Origin: an uncultured bacterium
GTDB lineage: Bacteria > Oederibacteriota > PGYV01 > Palsa-1178
Direction of reading: 5' to 3'
Assembly: GCA_937889595.1 (NCBI GenBank)
Contig: CALAOR010000081.1
Span: 1-64,000 of the forward strand
Length of the DNA stretch: 64,000 nucleotides
Position numbers and translations under genes: made by a program. Below the pieces are notes generated by a model. That model searched no databases. It was not told where the DNA came from and saw only the letters and a program-made list of their open reading frames with translations. Positions 3,901 to 44,767 of this stretch are shown here, piece by piece. How positions within the stretch are numbered: position 1 is the stretch's first letter; each line of letters opens with the position of its first letter.

Positions 3901-6583
3901 TACGGCAGGAACAAGGACCATAAAGTGGAACCTGGGTAATATGCTGGTGAACCAGTGCGGCACGGTATCGTACTGGGCAACGGCCGGAGGCGCATGTCCG
4001 TCTGCGGTGACGCTGTCAGCGGTCAACACCGCTTTTGTTTACGCGGACAATGAGTCGCCTGTCGCGGATTCGGCTACCGTGTCCATCAGCTGTTCCGCAC
4101 CGCCGCCTGCGCTCGCGCCTTCATCGATAACCAAGACGGCAAACGCTGCGAATTATAATACCAACGACCCGATAACATACACCATAGCCTATACCAATAT
4201 GAACGGCACGGTTGCTGATTCCGGGGCGGACCCGACAATACTAAGTTCCGGTGCGAATTGGACCAAAGACGGCGCGACCAATTACACTTTCAGCGGGGCC
4301 GGTATTACGCTTCCAAACGGCGCCGGGAAATACCACTACAATTATTCGAATGGGGTTAACGGCGTCATATACGCGAATTTTAATATTACAAATAATTCAT
4401 CCGACTTCGGAGTATATTTCAGGGGAACAATGGCATTTACGTTGAAGGTGCTGGGCGTAGGTGTGTCATGCCCCATAACCATATGGAACGGCACGACCGC
4501 GGTGGCCACAGGCAATGTTTCCTTCAGCTCGCTCACTGATGACATAAGGATCGACTTAAGCGGGGCCGCGGTAAAGGTATATATAAAGGACCATTCAGCA
4601 TCAACCTGGAATGTCCTGCCGACAATACAGTACCTGACCGCGCCGCAGACCGCAGGATACGCCGGTATTATTGACGGAACGCCTGCCGGAGGCAGCCCTA
4701 CGGGCAGCCACGTTGTGACAAAATGGTACACGTCCCTGGACTCGGCTTTCAATGTGCATGTTTATGACCCAATGCCGCCGGGGGTCGGTTTTGTTTCAGC
4801 ATCGAACAGCGGTTCGCTTGCCGCGGGAAGCGTGGATTATCCGCTGGTAGCCATGATGACCTATGGCCAGTCGCTTACATACACCTGGGCCGGCATAGTG
4901 ACCGCAACCTGCACGGATATTTATAATACCGCTTATGCCATACCGCAGGGCGTGACCTACACCGTAGGGGACCAGATGTCGGTGCATGTGAACTGCGTGG
5001 CAACAACGCCGACATTTACGCCTACAAGGACGCCCACGGCGACGTCAAGCGCAACGAATTCATTTACAAATACTTATACACGCACAAACACGCCTTCACC
5101 TACGTTCTCAGGCACCATGACTTACACGCCGTCAGCGTCACCGACGCCTTCCGCGACAAACTCGGTGTCCGTGACGTTCTCCCTGACTCCGACCATGACG
5201 GACACTTCCTCGCGCACAGCATCGCCAACGTATACGTATTCGGTTTCCGTCACCGTGACAAATACCTATACGAATACCAATTCGCCTACGTCTACGAGGA
5301 CCGTCAGCCCCACGCTGACAGTGACGGATACGCAATCGTCAAACACGCCGACATTCACGCTGACGTGGACAAATACGTTCACGGCATCGCCTACGTATAC
5401 GTCGACTTATACGCGGACAGCGTCGCCGACATCCACAAATACGGCGACAGCGACACAGACATTGACAAATACGGGAACGCAGACATATACGCGGACCAGC
5501 ACCGCTACAGTGACGGTGACGGGAACGGACGTGATATTCACCAGGACGATAACACCCACATGGACAAATACGTTTACATACACTGCTACACCCACGCAAA
5601 GCAGCACAGGGACAGGCACACCCACATGGACAAATACGTCCACATGGACCTATACGTTTACATACACTGCCACACCCACGCAAAGCAGCACCGGGACAGG
5701 CACGCCAACATGGACAAATACGCGCACGTATACGCCGACGCCGACCCAGAGCAGCACAGGGACAAACACATCCACAAATACGGCGACGAGGACTTCCACG
5801 GTAACGATGACAGTGACAAATACAAGGACGCAGACCGCGACGCCTACCGTGACGCGGACAATAACAGGAACGCCGACAGTAACGCCCACGCCCATGCCGT
5901 CGCCTGTAAACCTGGACATAAGCCTGGAAACATCAGGGGAGACCCCCAAAATAGGTGCGCTTGTCAAATACACGATAACGATAAAAAATAATACGGCATA
6001 CCCTGTTAATAACATAGCGGTATGGGACACGCTTCCGGTTGACATGGTGTTTGTATCGAATATTATCGGGACAACGACTTCGCAGACAGGCAATTACCTG
6101 TTCTGGGACCTGACAGATTATCTGTCGGGAACGCCTTTCACGCTTACTCCCGGCCAGCAGATAACAATAGAATTCACGGCAAGGATAGTGACCACGGACC
6201 CGTCGAGGCCGCTGCTGGTAAATACGGTAATGACGGATTACAATGACCCGTTTTATATCCCGTCAATAGGCAAACACCCACCGCTGTCGTCGGAACGGTC
6301 AATGTTCCCCATAGGAAAGCCGGTAGTGTTCCCGAACCCGTTTAACCTGGACACGAACAAAGAGGTTGTGTTTGACAATGTGGTGCCCGGCTCGCTCATA
6401 CAGATATTCACACTGTCCGGTGAAAGTGTAACGGCGATATATACGGGGATAAAAAGGGCGACATGGGACGGCAAGAACAGGAACGGCAGGGCAGTATCAG
6501 CCGGTATATATTTCTATGCGATAAGGAACCAGTCGAATGGGGATGTGAAGGCAGGGAAGCTGTTTGTGGTGAGAGGGAACTAA
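902..6583 (+). CDS. Giant secreted protein: GH8 glycosidase domain, DUF11 repeats, Thr/Pro stalk, FlgD-like C-terminal domain
   Basis: 1893 aa. A GTG start follows AAAGGA by about 11 nt, and residues 1-20 form a signal peptide (KKW, hydrophobic core, CFSA). Residues about 60-550 look like glycosyl hydrolase family 8: CSESAGYYMLSAALMGD with the likely acid Glu119, and ATDGDMDVAMAMLIA around Asp188-Asp190, which fits the family 8 signature except for one Val. GH8 enzymes hydrolyse beta-1,4-glucans, xylans or chitosan; the substrate cannot be told here. DUF11 segments begin near 557, 700, 1073 and 1668. A stalk of about 300 Thr/Pro-rich residues (1367-1667) precedes the last one. The tail (1805-1893) has the PNPF motif of FlgD-like sorting domains. 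Inferred: an enzyme displayed on or released from the cell surface. Confidence 0.9.
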   Translation: MKKWYFLFIAALVSAGYCFSAITVDINSYYPLASGPKMPFPQFNNYTAGGQQTLYTLSDTNHQPDGVAHAEMEKWIRDAWQIDANRFSTNGVANYQLAGGGPAPVTLIDYNSTCGDCSESAGYYMLSAALMGDKKTFDGIWFNLVENNRLMNAYKYSNNVWVSRGVGRDAEGLHFLSVYAPPGDSATDGDMDVAMAMLIAWKQWGDFTGYYALGGQGPETNTGGLKAIKYKEMALASMRFLVALGLQNAHATNVNAWMSGDIGFDGYHKGGQTWAEVTNFSIPSGTGGTCGPVNGPFYNGPRPASWYDYTGPSYLRAFANALTVNADPIDMASPLTWCSGASTGNWNVTQFLKGAAANAWLQGQLNSYTFPVAGDMTINGAAATFNATIDSEGEDFRSIWRHSLDYMLYGTPKDSWDPTAHSITVGLGNSFDKAGSLKVYNFLKNYPTCLQPGTYSLHFGIPEMIADNYSTAGVPDGTDHIPYLLGSATAAIVISQDFPFMERWFRELCTLWDSDTSGTGLQTGYLASAPKYFHDFFRLLGLMIITGNYVDPINFIPQPNMKIYKAVDKTYAFTGDYVTYWLNYRNYGSVDAANVVITDNIPPDFTYVSATDAPGGSHSGGQTVTWNIGPVPGLHTQNYNTTAGGVTLVVQVKSNAGQGRSCNIASITCSNGTGWTSNEFPNEVSYIMKRSCVDIVPSALTITKTASVNWAKPGDTITYTINYCDSSSAGWLEGGRSGVIFSIGAVNNFGNNMFTSLVMRGMHSASEPWIDWGNYRLSYFIYGQGQGFNLQQNRVEGTTGIMVSNETLVPGCTDMVLGTGCWDQRLIIQNNPSVSMPTQMLMKFFNNLPNMHYPDGILTYGGTGTLNPLLFQLDIWTNPAVTTHDFTKDYSALPNAGAYAYKDAGDNAPTCILYPIGPDFTDGNPLTAGVTVPKIDRDSCDGTNPMITNVLIEEWDGYCWRRVYGNGPQPGRELTNVFVVDSLPTNLNWGGFIGTPAGTYTAGTRTIKWNLGNMLVNQCGTVSYWATAGGACPSAVTLSAVNTAFVYADNESPVADSATVSISCSAPPPALAPSSITKTANAANYNTNDPITYTIAYTNMNGTVADSGADPTILSSGANWTKDGATNYTFSGAGITLPNGAGKYHYNYSNGVNGVIYANFNITNNSSDFGVYFRGTMAFTLKVLGVGVSCPITIWNGTTAVATGNVSFSSLTDDIRIDLSGAAVKVYIKDHSASTWNVLPTIQYLTAPQTAGYAGIIDGTPAGGSPTGSHVVTKWYTSLDSAFNVHVYDPMPPGVGFVSASNSGSLAAGSVDYPLVAMMTYGQSLTYTWAGIVTATCTDIYNTAYAIPQGVTYTVGDQMSVHVNCVATTPTFTPTRTPTATSSATNSFTNTYTRTNTPSPTFSGTMTYTPSASPTPSATNSVSVTFSLTPTMTDTSSRTASPTYTYSVSVTVTNTYTNTNSPTSTRTVSPTLTVTDTQSSNTPTFTLTWTNTFTASPTYTSTYTRTASPTSTNTATATQTLTNTGTQTYTRTSTATVTVTGTDVIFTRTITPTWTNTFTYTATPTQSSTGTGTPTWTNTSTWTYTFTYTATPTQSSTGTGTPTWTNTRTYTPTPTQSSTGTNTSTNTATRTSTVTMTVTNTRTQTATPTVTRTITGTPTVTPTPMPSPVNLDISLETSGETPKIGALVKYTITIKNNTAYPVNNIAVWDTLPVDMVFVSNIIGTTTSQTGNYLFWDLTDYLSGTPFTLTPGQQITIEFTARIVTTDPSRPLLVNTVMTDYNDPFYIPSIGKHPPLSSERSMFPIGKPVVFPNPFNLDTNKEVVFDNVVPGSLIQIFTLSGESVTAIYTGIKRATWDGKNRNGRAVSAGIYFYAIRNQSNGDVKAGKLFVVRGN
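5000..5905 (+). repeat. Thr/Pro/Ser-rich stalk-coding repeat region
   Basis: About 900 bp of low-complexity coding DNA built from ACG/ACA codons alternating with CCN, TAC, TGG and AAT. The longest internal repeat encodes TATPTQSSTGTGTPTWTNT, seen as two close copies near 5586-5725 and a shorter third just after. It encodes an extended linker between the enzyme/DUF11 part and the C-terminal domains. Long open frames on the opposite strand and in the +1 frame here are by-products of the codon bias. Confidence 0.9.
6148..6411 (+). repeat. 264-bp exact repeat, copy 2 (other copy 353-616)
   Basis: Second copy of the block described at 353-616, in the same coding frame at the end of the GH8 giant. 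Confidence 0.9.
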
Positions 6584-8058: not shown

Positions 8059-8086
8059 CCAGAATTCAGCGAAAGCTGAATTCTGG
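8059..8086. terminator. Perfect 12-bp hairpin at the 3' end of tRNA-Leu
   Basis: CCAGAATTCAGC, a GAAA loop, then GCTGAATTCTGG: a perfect inverted repeat. On the minus strand it starts with the CCA of the tRNA, so the stem contains the tRNA 3' terminus. No strong T-run follows on either strand, so it could be a processing signal or a weak terminator. Confidence 0.5.
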
Positions 8087-8170
8087 TGCGGATAGAGGGA
8101 CTTGAACCCACATAGCCTTGCGGCCACTAGAACCTGAATCTAGCGCGTCTGCCAATTTCGCCATATCCGC
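8084..8170 (-). tRNA. tRNA-Leu (anticodon CAG)
   Basis: The minus strand folds as a class II tRNA: acceptor GCGGATA/TATCCGC, D arm with GCG...CGC, anticodon stem CTAGA/TCTAG with loop TTCAGGT (anticodon CAG, reading CUG), a long variable arm (GGCCGCAAGGC) and a T arm with TTCAAGT. Discriminator A and CCA are encoded. The T stem GTGGG/CCCTC contains one T-T mismatch at its second pair, which is unusual. Confidence 0.88.
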
Positions 8171-8181
8171 ACAACGATAGT

Positions 8182-8210
8182 ATGATATATAAAATGCCGC
8201 TTAAAATCAA
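8182..8210 (-). promoter_or_regulatory. Promoter of tRNA-Leu, abutting an IS target duplication
   Basis: On the minus strand TTGATT (8210-8205), 17-bp spacer, TATCAT (8187-8182), 11 nt before the mature tRNA. The base just upstream of the -35 box is the end of the 16-bp target duplication of the neighbouring IS, so the insertion left the core promoter intact. Confidence 0.85.
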
Positions 8211-8226
8211 CTGTTTTTTAGCTGCC
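8211..8226. repeat. Target-site duplication of IS copy 1, left
   Basis: CTGTTTTTTAGCTGCC, repeated exactly at 9653-9668 on the other side of the element. Read on the minus strand it is GGCAGCTAAAAAACAG, directly followed by the tRNA -35 box. Confidence 0.9.
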
Positions 8227-9652
8227 TGTCAATGCAAAATAAGAATGTCCGGTTTTCTGCAAAATAGAAATGTCCGGTTTTTCATATATATGCCTGAAAT
8301 GAATCCCCGGAATTCCACGGATGGTGCCTGCCGGGTTTATGCTTGGTTTTTCTTGCCAATCTTACTACTTTTTCGCTTTTAAAATCATCAACCTCTTTAG
8401 TTCTTAACTTCATGTCAATCTTTGAGTATTTAATAGGTTCAACTTTGTATTCAATGCGCATTTTTGAGTTTAATTTCTCCACTATGCTGACCTTGCGTCC
8501 TTTGAGCGCCAAAACTGTATCTAATTGGTACAAACTACGTTCATATGCAACCGTATAGTCATTCCTGACGATCCGGTCTGTCTTTATCGCCAGGATATTG
8601 TTCAGATCCTGTCCTTCGCTTAACGGCATATGCATGTCATCATCTTTCACCGGTCTCACACAAAACTTCCTGTTATGCTTTGGCAGATAGTATTCCCTTA
8701 AAAACTTGTTTGCCTCTTCCATCGTATTTATCTTGGCAAGCCTCATCTCTTTTATCAACCTGTCCTGATGAGTTCTAAATGACCGTTCTATCCTGCCTTT
8801 TGCCTGTGGGGAATTGGCATGGATTACTTCTATGCCAAGTTCCTTTAATGCCCTTTCAAATTGACTCATTGGTTTTTCGTTTCTAAGTTGTTCTTCTATC
8901 GTTGCTTCTTTCTGCGATTTGTACGTCGAATGCCTGTCTAAATACACTATTCTTGGCTTTCCGTACTTCTTAATATATGTTTTCATCAGTACCATTGCGG
9001 GTATCGTGCCTTCATAAGCAAAGAACTCCGCATGAACCCGCCCAGTTGCATCGTCTATGAAACTCATCAATACCATTTCAGGCCAGCGTCCCTCAAGCCA
9101 ATCATGATGGCTTCCGTCCAGTTGTTCCATCTCTCCATAACACGCTTTTCTTTCCCGCCACTGCCGGTGCTTACAGCCTTTTCTAACGGGCTCCCACAAA
9201 CCTACCGACATTAATATCGTTCTTAAACTTTCTCGGTTTATTGATATTTTTTCTATCTCCAAGAATTTTTCCTGAGCTAAAGTCAAACTGAAATCCCTGT
9301 ATCTTTCAGCATATAAATCTATAATTTGATCCTTCTTTTCTGCCTTAATCTTTTTATGAGATACTTTGCCTCTCAACCGGTGGATCAAACCTTCTTTGCC
9401 GCCTTCGGTTACTCTTTTTACAAGACGCCTTACTTGTCTTTCGCTTATCCCCAGGTTCTTCGCGGCTTCAATCTGTCTTATCTGTCCCGCCATAACTCTT
9501 TTTATTTCCTCGTACGTTTTTACCTCTTTTGTGCTCATTAAGTTGCTGTCCAATCCGGTCATGGCGCACCTCCAATACCGCTATGCTACCACAACCTCAG
9601 AATAGGACATTTCTATTTTGCATAAATAGGACATTATCACTTTGCGGTTACA
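8227..9652 (-). mobile_element. Complete insertion sequence, ISNCY/IS1202-like, copy 1
   Basis: 1426 bp. Ends are TGT...ACA with imperfect inverted repeats of about 50 bp; each end carries the motif GCAAAnTnAnAATGTCC twice. The end at 8227 starts TGTCAATGCAAAATAA and the end at 9652 (minus strand) starts TGTAACCGCAAAGTGA. It is flanked by an exact 16-bp duplication and holds one intact transposase gene, so it looks complete and recently active. From memory, IS1202-related elements make unusually long duplications, which fits. Confidence 0.9.
8282..9562 (-). CDS. DDE transposase, ISNCY/IS1202-like
   Basis: 426 aa, intact. GGAGGTG lies 4 nt before the ATG. Residues about 28-50 form a helix-turn-helix (AAKNLGISERQVRRLVKR). 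The RNase-H-like catalytic core shows Asp149 (QLDGSHHDWLEG), Asp209 (YLDRHSTYK) and Glu259 (NSPQAKGRIER), the expected DDE triad. The GSHHDWLEGR and HSTYKS strings are shared with the second copy at 42791 and fit the ISNCY-type group. The two proteins have the same spacing of catalytic residues but differ at many positions, so they are related elements rather than recent copies of one another. Confidence 0.93.
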   Translation of the reverse strand: MTGLDSNLMSTKEVKTYEEIKRVMAGQIRQIEAAKNLGISERQVRRLVKRVTEGGKEGLIHRLRGKVSHKKIKAEKKDQIIDLYAERYRDFSLTLAQEKFLEIEKISINRESLRTILMSVGLWEPVRKGCKHRQWRERKACYGEMEQLDGSHHDWLEGRWPEMVLMSFIDDATGRVHAEFFAYEGTIPAMVLMKTYIKKYGKPRIVYLDRHSTYKSQKEATIEEQLRNEKPMSQFERALKELGIEVIHANSPQAKGRIERSFRTHQDRLIKEMRLAKINTMEEANKFLREYYLPKHNRKFCVRPVKDDDMHMPLSEGQDLNNILAIKTDRIVRNDYTVAYERSLYQLDTVLALKGRKVSIVEKLNSKMRIEYKVEPIKYSKIDMKLRTKEVDDFKSEKVVRLARKTKHKPGRHHPWNSGDSFQAYI

Positions 9653-9668
9653 CTGTTTTTTAGCTGCC
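9653..9668. repeat. Target-site duplication of IS copy 1, right
   Basis: Exact second copy of the 16 bp at 8211-8226. Confidence 0.9.
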
Positions 9669-42504: not shown

Positions 42505-42508
42505 AGAG

Positions 42509-42675
42509 ACTGTCGGAAAAGCCCGCAAGGGGCAGGCAGCATGATATGCTGCCCCTACAAATGCAGGCAGATATTTGTAGGGGCCGAATACGAAGTCCGG
42601 CAACACACAAAGTGTGTTGACAGGATTATTCGGCCCACAACGATGGCTTTTAGGGGTTTTGCGACAGTATCGTTT
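42509..42675. repeat. Nested palindromic repeat between PorV-like gene and IS
   Basis: Outer borders GACTGTCGGAAAAGCC and GGCTTTTAGGGGTTTTGCGACAGTATC are inverted relative to each other. Inside are GGGGCAG...CTGCCCC and TGTAGGGGCCGAATA...TATTCGGCCCACA palindromes. At least two repeat families appear stacked. Confidence 0.7.
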
Positions 42676-42687
42676 TAGTTCCATTTT

Positions 42688-42702
42688 AGTCCTAAAAAAT
42701 AC
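42688..42702. repeat. Target-site duplication of IS copy 2, left
   Basis: AGTCCTAAAAAATAC, exactly repeated at 44110-44124. Confidence 0.9.
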
Positions 42703-44109
42703 TGTAGTCGCAAAGTGGTAATGTCCTATTTGTGCAAAGCAAGAATGTCCTAATCCAGTTATGTTAGCATTGTAGGTATGGAGGTGCTACATGACAGAAA
42801 AGGACGGGTATTTAATGGGAACTATAGACAGACAGAAACTGAAAGTAATATCAGTGGTAGTTGAAAAGAAAATGAAACAATGGGAAGCTGCGGAGAAGTT
42901 AGTAATAAGTGAAAGACAGATCAGGCGATTGGTAAAAAGGTACAGGAAATATGGTGACAAAGGACTGGTTCACCAGTTAAGAGGACGCGAAGCGTCCAAC
43001 AAGATAAGCAAAGAAATAAGAGATAAGGTCGTGGATTTGTATTCGGAAAAATATAAGGGATTTGGTCCTACGTTGGGGCAAGAAAAGATCGTTGAGATTG
43101 AAAAGGTATGTATGAGCAGAGAGAGTTTCAGACATGTTTTGCTTGAAGCCGGGCTGTGGGAATCAAGCAGAAAATCTAAAAAGCACCGGCAATGGCGCGA
43201 ACGTATGAAATACAAGGGCGAGATGGTTCAGATGGACGGAAGCCATCATGATTGGCTTGAAGGACGTGGGCCGTGGCTGGTGTTAATGGGATATATTGAT
43301 GACGCAACAGGTGTTGTGTATGCGGAGTTCCATGATTACGAAGGAACAAAACCGGCAATGATAAGCTTCAAAGGTTATATAAAGAAGCACGGAATACCAA
43401 TGAAACTGTACCTAGATAAGCATAGTACATACAAATCGACAGAAAAAGAAACTGAGGAAGAACAACTGGCTGGTGAAAGAGCACAAAGTCAGTTTGAAAG
43501 GGCTTTATATACTATTGGGGTTGAAATCATACATGCAAATTCACCACAAGCTAAAGGCCGTATAGAACGATTGTTCAAAACTTTTCAAGATAGGGTAATA
43601 AAAGAGATGAGACTAGCAGGAGTTAAGAGCAAAGATGAAGCAAACGAATTTTTGCGTTGGTACTTGCCTGTTTTCAACCGGAAATTCTCAGTAGAACCAG
43701 CAGCAAGCCAGGACATGCATCGTGAAGTTGAATCGTGGGATGAACTGAATAATGCGCTTACAATCAGAACCGATAGAACTGTGAGAAATGATTATACAAT
43801 TTCATTTAAAGGTAAGATGTACCAATTAAAAACTGCTCTGGCTTTGAAAGGCAGGAAGATTACAGTTGTCGAACTGTTGAACGACAGAATGCGGTTGGAA
43901 TATGGTTCTGAACGAATAGAGCATTGGATGATAAATCCCCGGCCAAAGGTTAAAATAACCAAAATTAAGGTTAAAAAGCTGAGCATATTTAGACCGGTGA
44001 AGCCGGCCAAGAACCATCCATGGCGAAGCGGAATGAATGACCATATGGCAATATAAAATAGGACATTCTTGCTTTGCAGAGAATAGGACATTTTAGCTTT
44101 GCATTGACA
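42703..44109 (+). mobile_element. Complete insertion sequence, ISNCY/IS1202-like, copy 2
   Basis: 1407 bp, TGT...ACA ends with imperfect inverted repeats. Left end TGTAGTCGCAAAGTGGTAAT; right end (inward) TGTCAATGCAAAGCTAAAAT. Both ends carry the GCAAA...AATGTCC motif twice. Flanked by a 15-bp duplication. The promoter-distal transposase end faces the next gene, as in copy 1. Confidence 0.9.
42791..44056 (+). CDS. DDE transposase, ISNCY/IS1202-like
   Basis: 421 aa, intact. GGAGGTG lies 5 nt before the ATG. Helix-turn-helix near 31-50 (EAAEKLVISERQIRRLVKR). Catalytic Asp149 (QMDGSHHDWLEG), Asp209 (YLDKHSTYK) and Glu259 (NSPQAKGRIER) align exactly with the transposase at 8282. C-terminal tail PAKNHPWRSG matches the RHHPWNSG tail of copy 1. 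Confidence 0.93.
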   Translation: MTEKDGYLMGTIDRQKLKVISVVVEKKMKQWEAAEKLVISERQIRRLVKRYRKYGDKGLVHQLRGREASNKISKEIRDKVVDLYSEKYKGFGPTLGQEKIVEIEKVCMSRESFRHVLLEAGLWESSRKSKKHRQWRERMKYKGEMVQMDGSHHDWLEGRGPWLVLMGYIDDATGVVYAEFHDYEGTKPAMISFKGYIKKHGIPMKLYLDKHSTYKSTEKETEEEQLAGERAQSQFERALYTIGVEIIHANSPQAKGRIERLFKTFQDRVIKEMRLAGVKSKDEANEFLRWYLPVFNRKFSVEPAASQDMHREVESWDELNNALTIRTDRTVRNDYTISFKGKMYQLKTALALKGRKITVVELLNDRMRLEYGSERIEHWMINPRPKVKITKIKVKKLSIFRPVKPAKNHPWRSGMNDHMAI

Positions 44110-44124
44110 AGTCCTAAAAAATAC
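44110..44124. repeat. Target-site duplication of IS copy 2, right
   Basis: AGTCCTAAAAAATAC; the next base begins the -35 box of the downstream promoter. Confidence 0.9.
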
Positions 44125-44153
44125 TTGAAAAATCCGCCTTTGTGTTATATTAT
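44125..44153 (+). promoter_or_regulatory. Promoter of the small exported protein, abutting IS copy 2
   Basis: TTGAAA (44125-44130), 17-bp spacer, TATTAT (44148-44153). The IS right end supplies an outward TTGACA (44104-44109) 15 bp further upstream, giving tandem -35-like hexamers. Confidence 0.85.
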
Positions 44154-44191: not shown

Positions 44192-44767
44192 ATGAAAAAA
44201 GTCATTTTGTTCGTAGCGGCAGTTATGGTTGTTTTCTCATCGGTCTCGTTTTGCGCGTGGAAAAGCTGGGAGGATTTTAATTCATATAAAGAAGCCAGGA
44301 AAGCGGCTACAGATGCGGAAGCAACGAGCGATACGCCAAATGCTGTTGCAAATTACAAGAAAGCTGCGGATCTTGCGGGAAAATCAGCGACAAAAGACAT
44401 TCAGGCATGGCAGATCAACAATGCTGCTTTTGTCCTGATAAAACAGTTCAAAGCCCTGGTTACCTATGATGAAAAACTCGCGAAACTCACGGAAATGACC
44501 CCGAGCAAGGAAAAGGTGGCTTTCCAGAAGGAAATGGCGGAACTTTTTTCATCCAAGATCGATGTGTTAAATGAGGCAAAAGCCCTGCTTGAATCCGGCA
44601 AAGCCCTGGACGGCGGAGAAGCGCCGACAGCCAAGATACAGAGCAATATTGACTATATTGACTGGGTGTTAAAGTTCGTATCCGACAATTTAGGCGATGC
44701 ACAGGCAGCCGCGCCTGCGGCAGCGGCGCCCGAAAAAGTAACGCCAACAGCCGATACTAAAAAATAA
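44192..44767 (+). CDS. Small exported helical protein of unknown function
   Basis: 191 aa. Signal peptide 1-21 (VSFCA). The mature part is alpha-helical and resembles a TPR/spectrin-like bundle (PNAVANYKKAADLAGKSATKDIQAWQINNAAFVLIKQF), with an Ala/Pro-rich tail (AQAAAPAAAAPEK). The family is not recognised. AAGGAGG lies 7 nt before the ATG. Monocistronic, with a strong terminator. Probably periplasmic. Confidence 0.8.
   Translation: MKKVILFVAAVMVVFSSVSFCAWKSWEDFNSYKEARKAATDAEATSDTPNAVANYKKAADLAGKSATKDIQAWQINNAAFVLIKQFKALVTYDEKLAKLTEMTPSKEKVAFQKEMAELFSSKIDVLNEAKALLESGKALDGGEAPTAKIQSNIDYIDWVLKFVSDNLGDAQAAAPAAAAPEKVTPTADTKK

Follow-up and report, generated by a model that had tools for sequence, protein, structure and literature searches.

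Two insertion sequences (ISs) in the window analysed here, a stretch of 64,000 nucleotides (positions 1 to 64,000 of contig CALAOR010000081.1) from an uncultured bacterium of the Oederibacteriota, each lie against the -35 box of a predicted promoter. The locus raises the question of whether such elements select promoters as targets and, if so, how a promoter is found. IS copy 1 (8227..9652, minus strand, 1426 bp; ends TGTAACCGCAAAGTGATAATGTCC / GGACATTCTTATTTTGCATTGACA) carries a transposase gene at 8282..9562 (minus strand, 426 aa). It is bounded by a perfect 16 bp target duplication on the promoter side (8211..8226, minus strand; GGCAGCTAAAAAACAG in the transposase sense) and on the distal side (9653..9668, minus strand). 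IS copy 2 (42703..44109, plus strand, 1407 bp; ends TGTAGTCGCAAAGTGGTAATGTCC / GGACATTTTAGCTTTGCATTGACA) encodes its transposase at 42791..44056 (plus strand, 421 aa), and its perfect 15 bp duplication lies at 42688..42702 (distal, AGTCCTAAAAAATAC) and 44110..44124 (promoter side), both given on the plus strand.

At the IS 1 site the -35 box TTGATT (8205..8210, minus strand) starts at the edge of the duplication with no gap. A spacer of 17 bp separates it from the -10 box TATCAT (8182..8187, minus strand), and the promoter leads to a tRNA-Leu (CAG) gene (8084..8170, minus strand). The IS 2 site has the same arrangement on the plus strand: TTGAAA (44125..44130) begins directly at the duplication edge, and the -10 box TATTAT (44148..44153) follows after 17 bp. 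A Shine-Dalgarno-like AAGGAGG comes next, and then the ATG at 44192 of a plus-strand gene (44192..44767) whose 191 aa product gave no Pfam or NCBIfam match. Both promoters were also called by a consensus scanner. The initial annotation had placed both ISs directly upstream of a -35 box with the transposase pointing toward the promoter; the perfect duplications and the coordinates bear out both statements. The same annotation spoke of two copies of one IS, which does not hold, as the two transposases are 54-55% identical and belong to distinct elements. A third copy of either IS was not found in the 3.42 Mb genome. In a sister genome of the same genus, IS 2 has a counterpart of 95% identity, the other end of which lies beyond the contig edge, with the promoter side outside the assembled sequence.

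Other repeats were seen in the window. A 166 bp MITE-like repeat (42506-42671), whose inverted ends are 19 bp long (GAGACTGTCGGAAAAGCCC / GGGGTTTTGCGACAGTATC), stops 16 bp short of the distal IS 2 duplication. Stretches of 300 bp are repeated between 1-788 and 5790-6583 at 89% and 98% identity, and a 256 aa secreted protein (DUF11 plus a CHU_C-like sorting domain) is almost a duplicate of the C-terminus of the adjoining 1893 aa surface protein.

Both window elements are members of the IS1202 family, long-duplication group. Their transposases scored 394 (IS 1) and 392 bits (IS 2) against the NCBIfam ISNCY/IS1202 model NF033594 (cut-off 250). Residues E259 and Q266 were invariant in our transposase alignment A1, the Q being the seventh position past the catalytic E, and a Q at this position is a criterion of the IS1202 family (PMC10132070). 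The protein lengths (421 and 426 aa) and element lengths (1407 and 1426 bp) lie within the family ranges of 394-507 aa and about 1.3-1.75 kb. The family has been defined and split by duplication length (Harmer et al., 2023; PMC10132070); the long-duplication group has about 16-28 bp, the window elements have 15 and 16 bp, and their relatives mostly 16-17 bp. The window ISs end in TGT...ACA with imperfect terminal repeats (18/24 and 16/24 matches), as is usual in the family, where these repeats measure about 24-26 bp. They share transposase family and size with IS1202, ISTde1, ISCARN53/62/63, ISHahy13 and ISShha1, as well as the TGT...ACA ends, terminal repeats of about 24 bp and a duplication length of about 16-17 bp. 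A conserved target of the 16-28 bp group was sought and none was reported, and the authors asked for more data (PMC10132070), whereas here the elements are found to target promoters, at the edge upstream of the -35. It was noted previously that IS1202-type duplications fall into classes one helical turn apart (PMC10045372).

The IS 2 transposase was modelled with AlphaFold (mean pLDDT 74), and the model is similar to MuA, to IstA from IS21 and to TnsB from CRISPR-associated transposons, the best structure matches being IstA and TnsB. Tn7 (TnsABCDE) and IS21 (IstA/IstB) likewise have a DDE transposase of this fold. Unlike these systems, the window ISs encode no TnsA, TnsC, TnsD or IstB, and so lack the combination of TnsA, TnsC and a target selector that marks Tn7-like elements; on its transposase strand each IS has a single open reading frame of at least 100 aa, the transposase itself. 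Their targets are promoters, not attTn7.

Two window cases alone prove nothing about target choice, so the claim has to be carried by enrichment among relatives. We gathered relatives by transposase homology only, ignoring promoters, from ∼1,380 whole genomes, viral contigs, plasmids and phages, and defined the IS boundaries by terminal repeats and duplications, again with promoters not consulted. This collection contains neither IS1202 itself, with its 27 bp duplication, nor ISSeq2. A profile search of the viral contigs with alignment A1 gave no relatives, and searches with the A3 and A2 profiles gave ISAjo2-type elements or elements with undefined ends. The test set comprised 35 insertions, all non-redundant and each flanked by a clear duplication. 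Promoters were predicted as sigma-70-like with a score of at least 8, using a weight matrix of approximate E. coli frequencies.

Such a promoter, its -35 box starting exactly at the duplication edge on one side, was present in 28 of the 35 insertions, compared with 0.42 expected from the flanks (P about 1e-47), and the -35 and -10 were left intact. At a score of at least 14 the numbers were 22 observed and 0.01 expected. The offset profile showed 28 insertions at offset 0 and at most one at every other offset, with no enrichment elsewhere. The edge promoters read TTGACA-17-TATAAT in three genomes (G598, G208 and G709), TTGACC-17-TATAAT in the Paenibacillus cellulosilyticus megaplasmid and TTGCCG-18-TACAAT in a GC-rich genome. 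Besides IS 1, five relatives (L067, L072, L082, L089 and L223) hit promoters of tRNA or tmRNA genes, which argues that the targets are real promoters that predate the insertion. The elements from G598 (1327 bp, 17 bp duplication) adjoin a TTGACA promoter in all three copies, and the published length and duplication of ISTde1 indicate that this IS is probably ISTde1. We did not recover an empty target site in a close relative.

These counts bear on coincidence, a reading that the initial annotation had left room for. With only two copies in the genome, and those of different elements, chance might have accounted for the window; the recurrence of the same register in relatives of many phyla makes it the least probable of the explanations considered. 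Long-duplication IS1202-family transposases insert at promoters in a fixed register at the -35 edge, and of this we are virtually certain.

Seven insertions deviate from the rule. Five (L094, L197, L205, L212 and L213) have perfect duplications and lie inside open frames longer than 300 codons with no promoter, and because of them we describe the promoter targeting as strong, not absolute. L218 is 2 bp off register, and L025 belongs to another family. L025 and L026 (both from G061) are far more distant integrase-type ISs with 18 bp duplications and a long tree branch; L026 adjoins the promoter TTGTAA-17-TATAAT and L025 does not. Both were counted among the 35, and dropping them leaves the conclusion unchanged.

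The copies of a single IS within one genome gave the same picture. In G709, which has many copies, 14 of the 21 analysed loci had a promoter (score of at least 10) 14-18 bp from the IS end, one of the 14 (L221) being ambiguous since its apparent -35 is a stray IS end; the background is 1.9% per copy (P about 6e-20). One locus of this genome, L222, has an outward -35/-10 promoter 15-16 bp from both IS ends and no duplication, perhaps because two copies inserted at promoters have recombined.

Random insertion followed by selection has also been considered: the space upstream of a promoter is safe, and only gene-sparing insertions would persist. The promoter insertions do keep the -35 and -10 intact and mostly avoid genes. 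However, selection cannot yield a single-base register such as the one at offset 0, nor the fixed 5 bp spacing of the unrelated element described below, and insertions inside genes do survive. We regard this explanation as highly improbable.

What the transposase responds to could be the -35 motif, the whole promoter or the DNA upstream of it. The logo of the aligned sites displayed a full promoter, TTGACA plus TATAAT, and was nearly flat upstream of the -35 (at most about 0.5 bit). All 29 sites that scored at least 6 at the edge had an invariant TTG. Of the TTG-edge sites, 93% carried a good -10 after 16-18 bp, vs. 6% of the TTGs in non-coding flanks (P about 6e-19), with a spacing of 17 bp in 27 sites and 18 bp in two. 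The -10 is therefore equally required and the target is the whole promoter; the TTGACA motif alone as a target is ruled out by this comparison.

The initial annotation had proposed recognition of an A-tract together with the -35 region. In the corresponding rival reading, A-tract or bent DNA containing CTAAAAAA would be the target and the -35 incidental. Both window duplications contain CTAAAAAA, and the duplications are somewhat AT-rich (68% vs. 60% in the flanks). Yet CTAAAAAA was absent from all 26 other promoter-edge duplications, which leaves 2 of 28, and A6 occurred in 3 of 28. Together with the flat logo upstream of the -35, this makes A-tract targeting very improbable. A single orientation as a general rule was likewise not upheld: the transposase points toward the promoter at 14 of the 28 sites and away from it at 14. 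Orientation is lineage-specific: in the G208/G598 group every transposase points toward the promoter, in the G709/G185 group almost every one points away, and one IS in G293 occurs in both orientations within a single genome.

The best rival to docking on RNA polymerase is direct reading of the promoter DNA by the transposase, which would recognise a TTGACA-like sequence, with or without the -10, and need no polymerase. The invariant TTG speaks for it, as does the resemblance of the target motif to the terminus of the IS itself, since one terminus is TGTCAA/TTGACA in most members. On the other side, the first base of the -10 is 23 bp from the cut, and the -10 is nevertheless conserved like the -35, whereas ordinary TTG or TTGA sites lack it. 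TTGATT, TTGCCT and TTGTTT are among the many targets that deviate from TTGACA and still have good -10 boxes, and promoters adjoin either IS end, whatever its terminal letters. We consider direct reading unlikely, though the most credible of the rivals. As a separate observation, one IS terminus is in most members an outward TTGACA, for example at 44104-44109 of the window, and at L221 such an end has TATAAT at a distance of 18 bp; the IS may occasionally supply a -35.

A second promoter-targeting element, here called X, is repeated in G208, often beside IS1202-like copies. It is about 1.4 kb in length and was found at L241 (4861-6273), at about 40 more positions in L249-L308 of the same genome, and in G293 (L238), where it also lies 5 bp from a -35. 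Its integrase-core transposase (408 aa) aligns along 91% of its length, as the query, with the Leptospira biflexa protein annotated as ISLbi1 transposase, at 40% identity, and this homology places X in the ISLbi1 group. BLASTP detected no similarity between the transposases of X and of the window ISs. We surveyed every right end of X in 1.19 Mb of contiguous tiles of G208; tandem copies, IS-disrupted copies and duplicate flanks were excluded. At all 37 independent sites the right end was exactly 5 bp upstream of a -35, compared with 0.11 expected (P about 1e-93), and the orientation was the same throughout. A perfect 5 bp duplication flanks 17 of 31 full-length copies. The promoters at 34 of the 37 sites lead to a ribosome-binding site with a reading frame, or to a tRNA, within 300 nt; for random positions the value for a ribosome-binding site plus reading frame is 39%. 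Head-to-tail tandem arrays of X were also seen at the same 5 bp. These statistics cover G208, and the ISLbi1-group members on plasmids had no definable ends. No description of promoter targeting by the ISLbi1 group was found in the open-access literature. X and the IS1202-type elements have the promoter-side cut in common, at the upstream -35 edge, and differ in the distal cut, which is 5 vs. about 16 bp away.

The short-duplication half of the IS1202 family offers a comparison with a known target. Elements with 3-5 bp duplications (ISAjo2 type) insert at the edge of dif XerC sites in a fixed orientation (PMC10132070). We found a dif-like sequence at the expected edge in short-duplication relatives from IMG/VR (L124, L126 and L128), Vibrio plasmids (L184, L186 and L187), Acinetobacter (L243), Paraburkholderia (L244) and Ensifer (L246), while no promoter was found at the duplication edge of the ISAjo2/ISAba32 group. 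These known targets at the dif edge emerged from an analysis of the same kind and serve as its positive control. The dif-labelled and promoter-labelled members of a maximum-likelihood tree, which held 47 transposases, were on opposite sides of a fully supported branch. The ISAjo2/ISAba32 elements, which hunt dif and pdif, have a transposase of the same superfamily as the window ISs and an edge that adjoins the site of a host protein, XerC. They differ in their 5 bp duplication, dif-like target and separate clade; the window elements have duplications of 15-16 bp and adjoin promoters. A dif-like target for the window elements was rejected, as dif sites were seen solely in short-duplication relatives.

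Where the insertions lie, how precise their placement is, that both -35 and -10 are needed and that the pattern recurs across many phyla are matters of direct observation. The target geometry further suggests how the site may be found. On the promoter side, strand transfer coincides with the edge where the -35 element begins, and the second cut lies 15-17 bp further upstream, so that the region just upstream of the -35 is duplicated while the -35 and -10 remain intact. This region is the place of UP elements and of the RNA polymerase alpha C-terminal domains. The transposase would reach the site by docking on the promoter-bound holoenzyme, with region 4 of sigma, which covers the -35, as the probable contact; the sister ISAjo2 group offers a parallel in its insertion at the edge of the XerC site of dif. 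Docking is favoured because the -10 lies beyond the normal reach of a transposase at the cut, because transposases of the IS1202 and ISLbi1 types have converged on one edge and, as the main reason, because the insertions of the sister clade adjoin the XerC site.

We judge it reasonably likely that the transposase docks on promoter-bound RNA polymerase or sigma, and give similar credence to the broader proposal that at least two distinct transposase families dock on the holoenzyme and cut at the upstream -35 edge. Promoter-edge insertion combined with docking on promoter-bound RNA polymerase is, in our assessment, quite probably the best overall explanation of the data. The yeast elements Ty1, Ty3 and Tf1 dock on Pol III or promoter factors. 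They resemble the present ISs in that their integration position upstream of transcription starts is fixed, tRNA genes included, and the gene is spared; they are eukaryotic retroelements, and no homology is claimed at the targeting step. If docking by two families is true, the yeast Ty elements, with their use of the transcription machinery, would have a counterpart among prokaryotes.

No earlier report of ISs that target sigma-70 promoters as a class was found in the open-access literature. ISs of this type would map active promoters in uncultured bacteria, and such an element would offer a single-protein tool for promoter-directed insertion. For the IS1202 family, the target of the long-duplication half, left open in 2023 (PMC10132070), is now given at single-base precision. 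The two halves may follow a common logic of landing at the edge of a host-protein footprint, XerC on dif in one and probably sigma or RNA polymerase in the other. Landing upstream of an active promoter would seldom harm the host, which is the likely benefit, and insertion at the promoter edge could explain the benign persistence of these elements.
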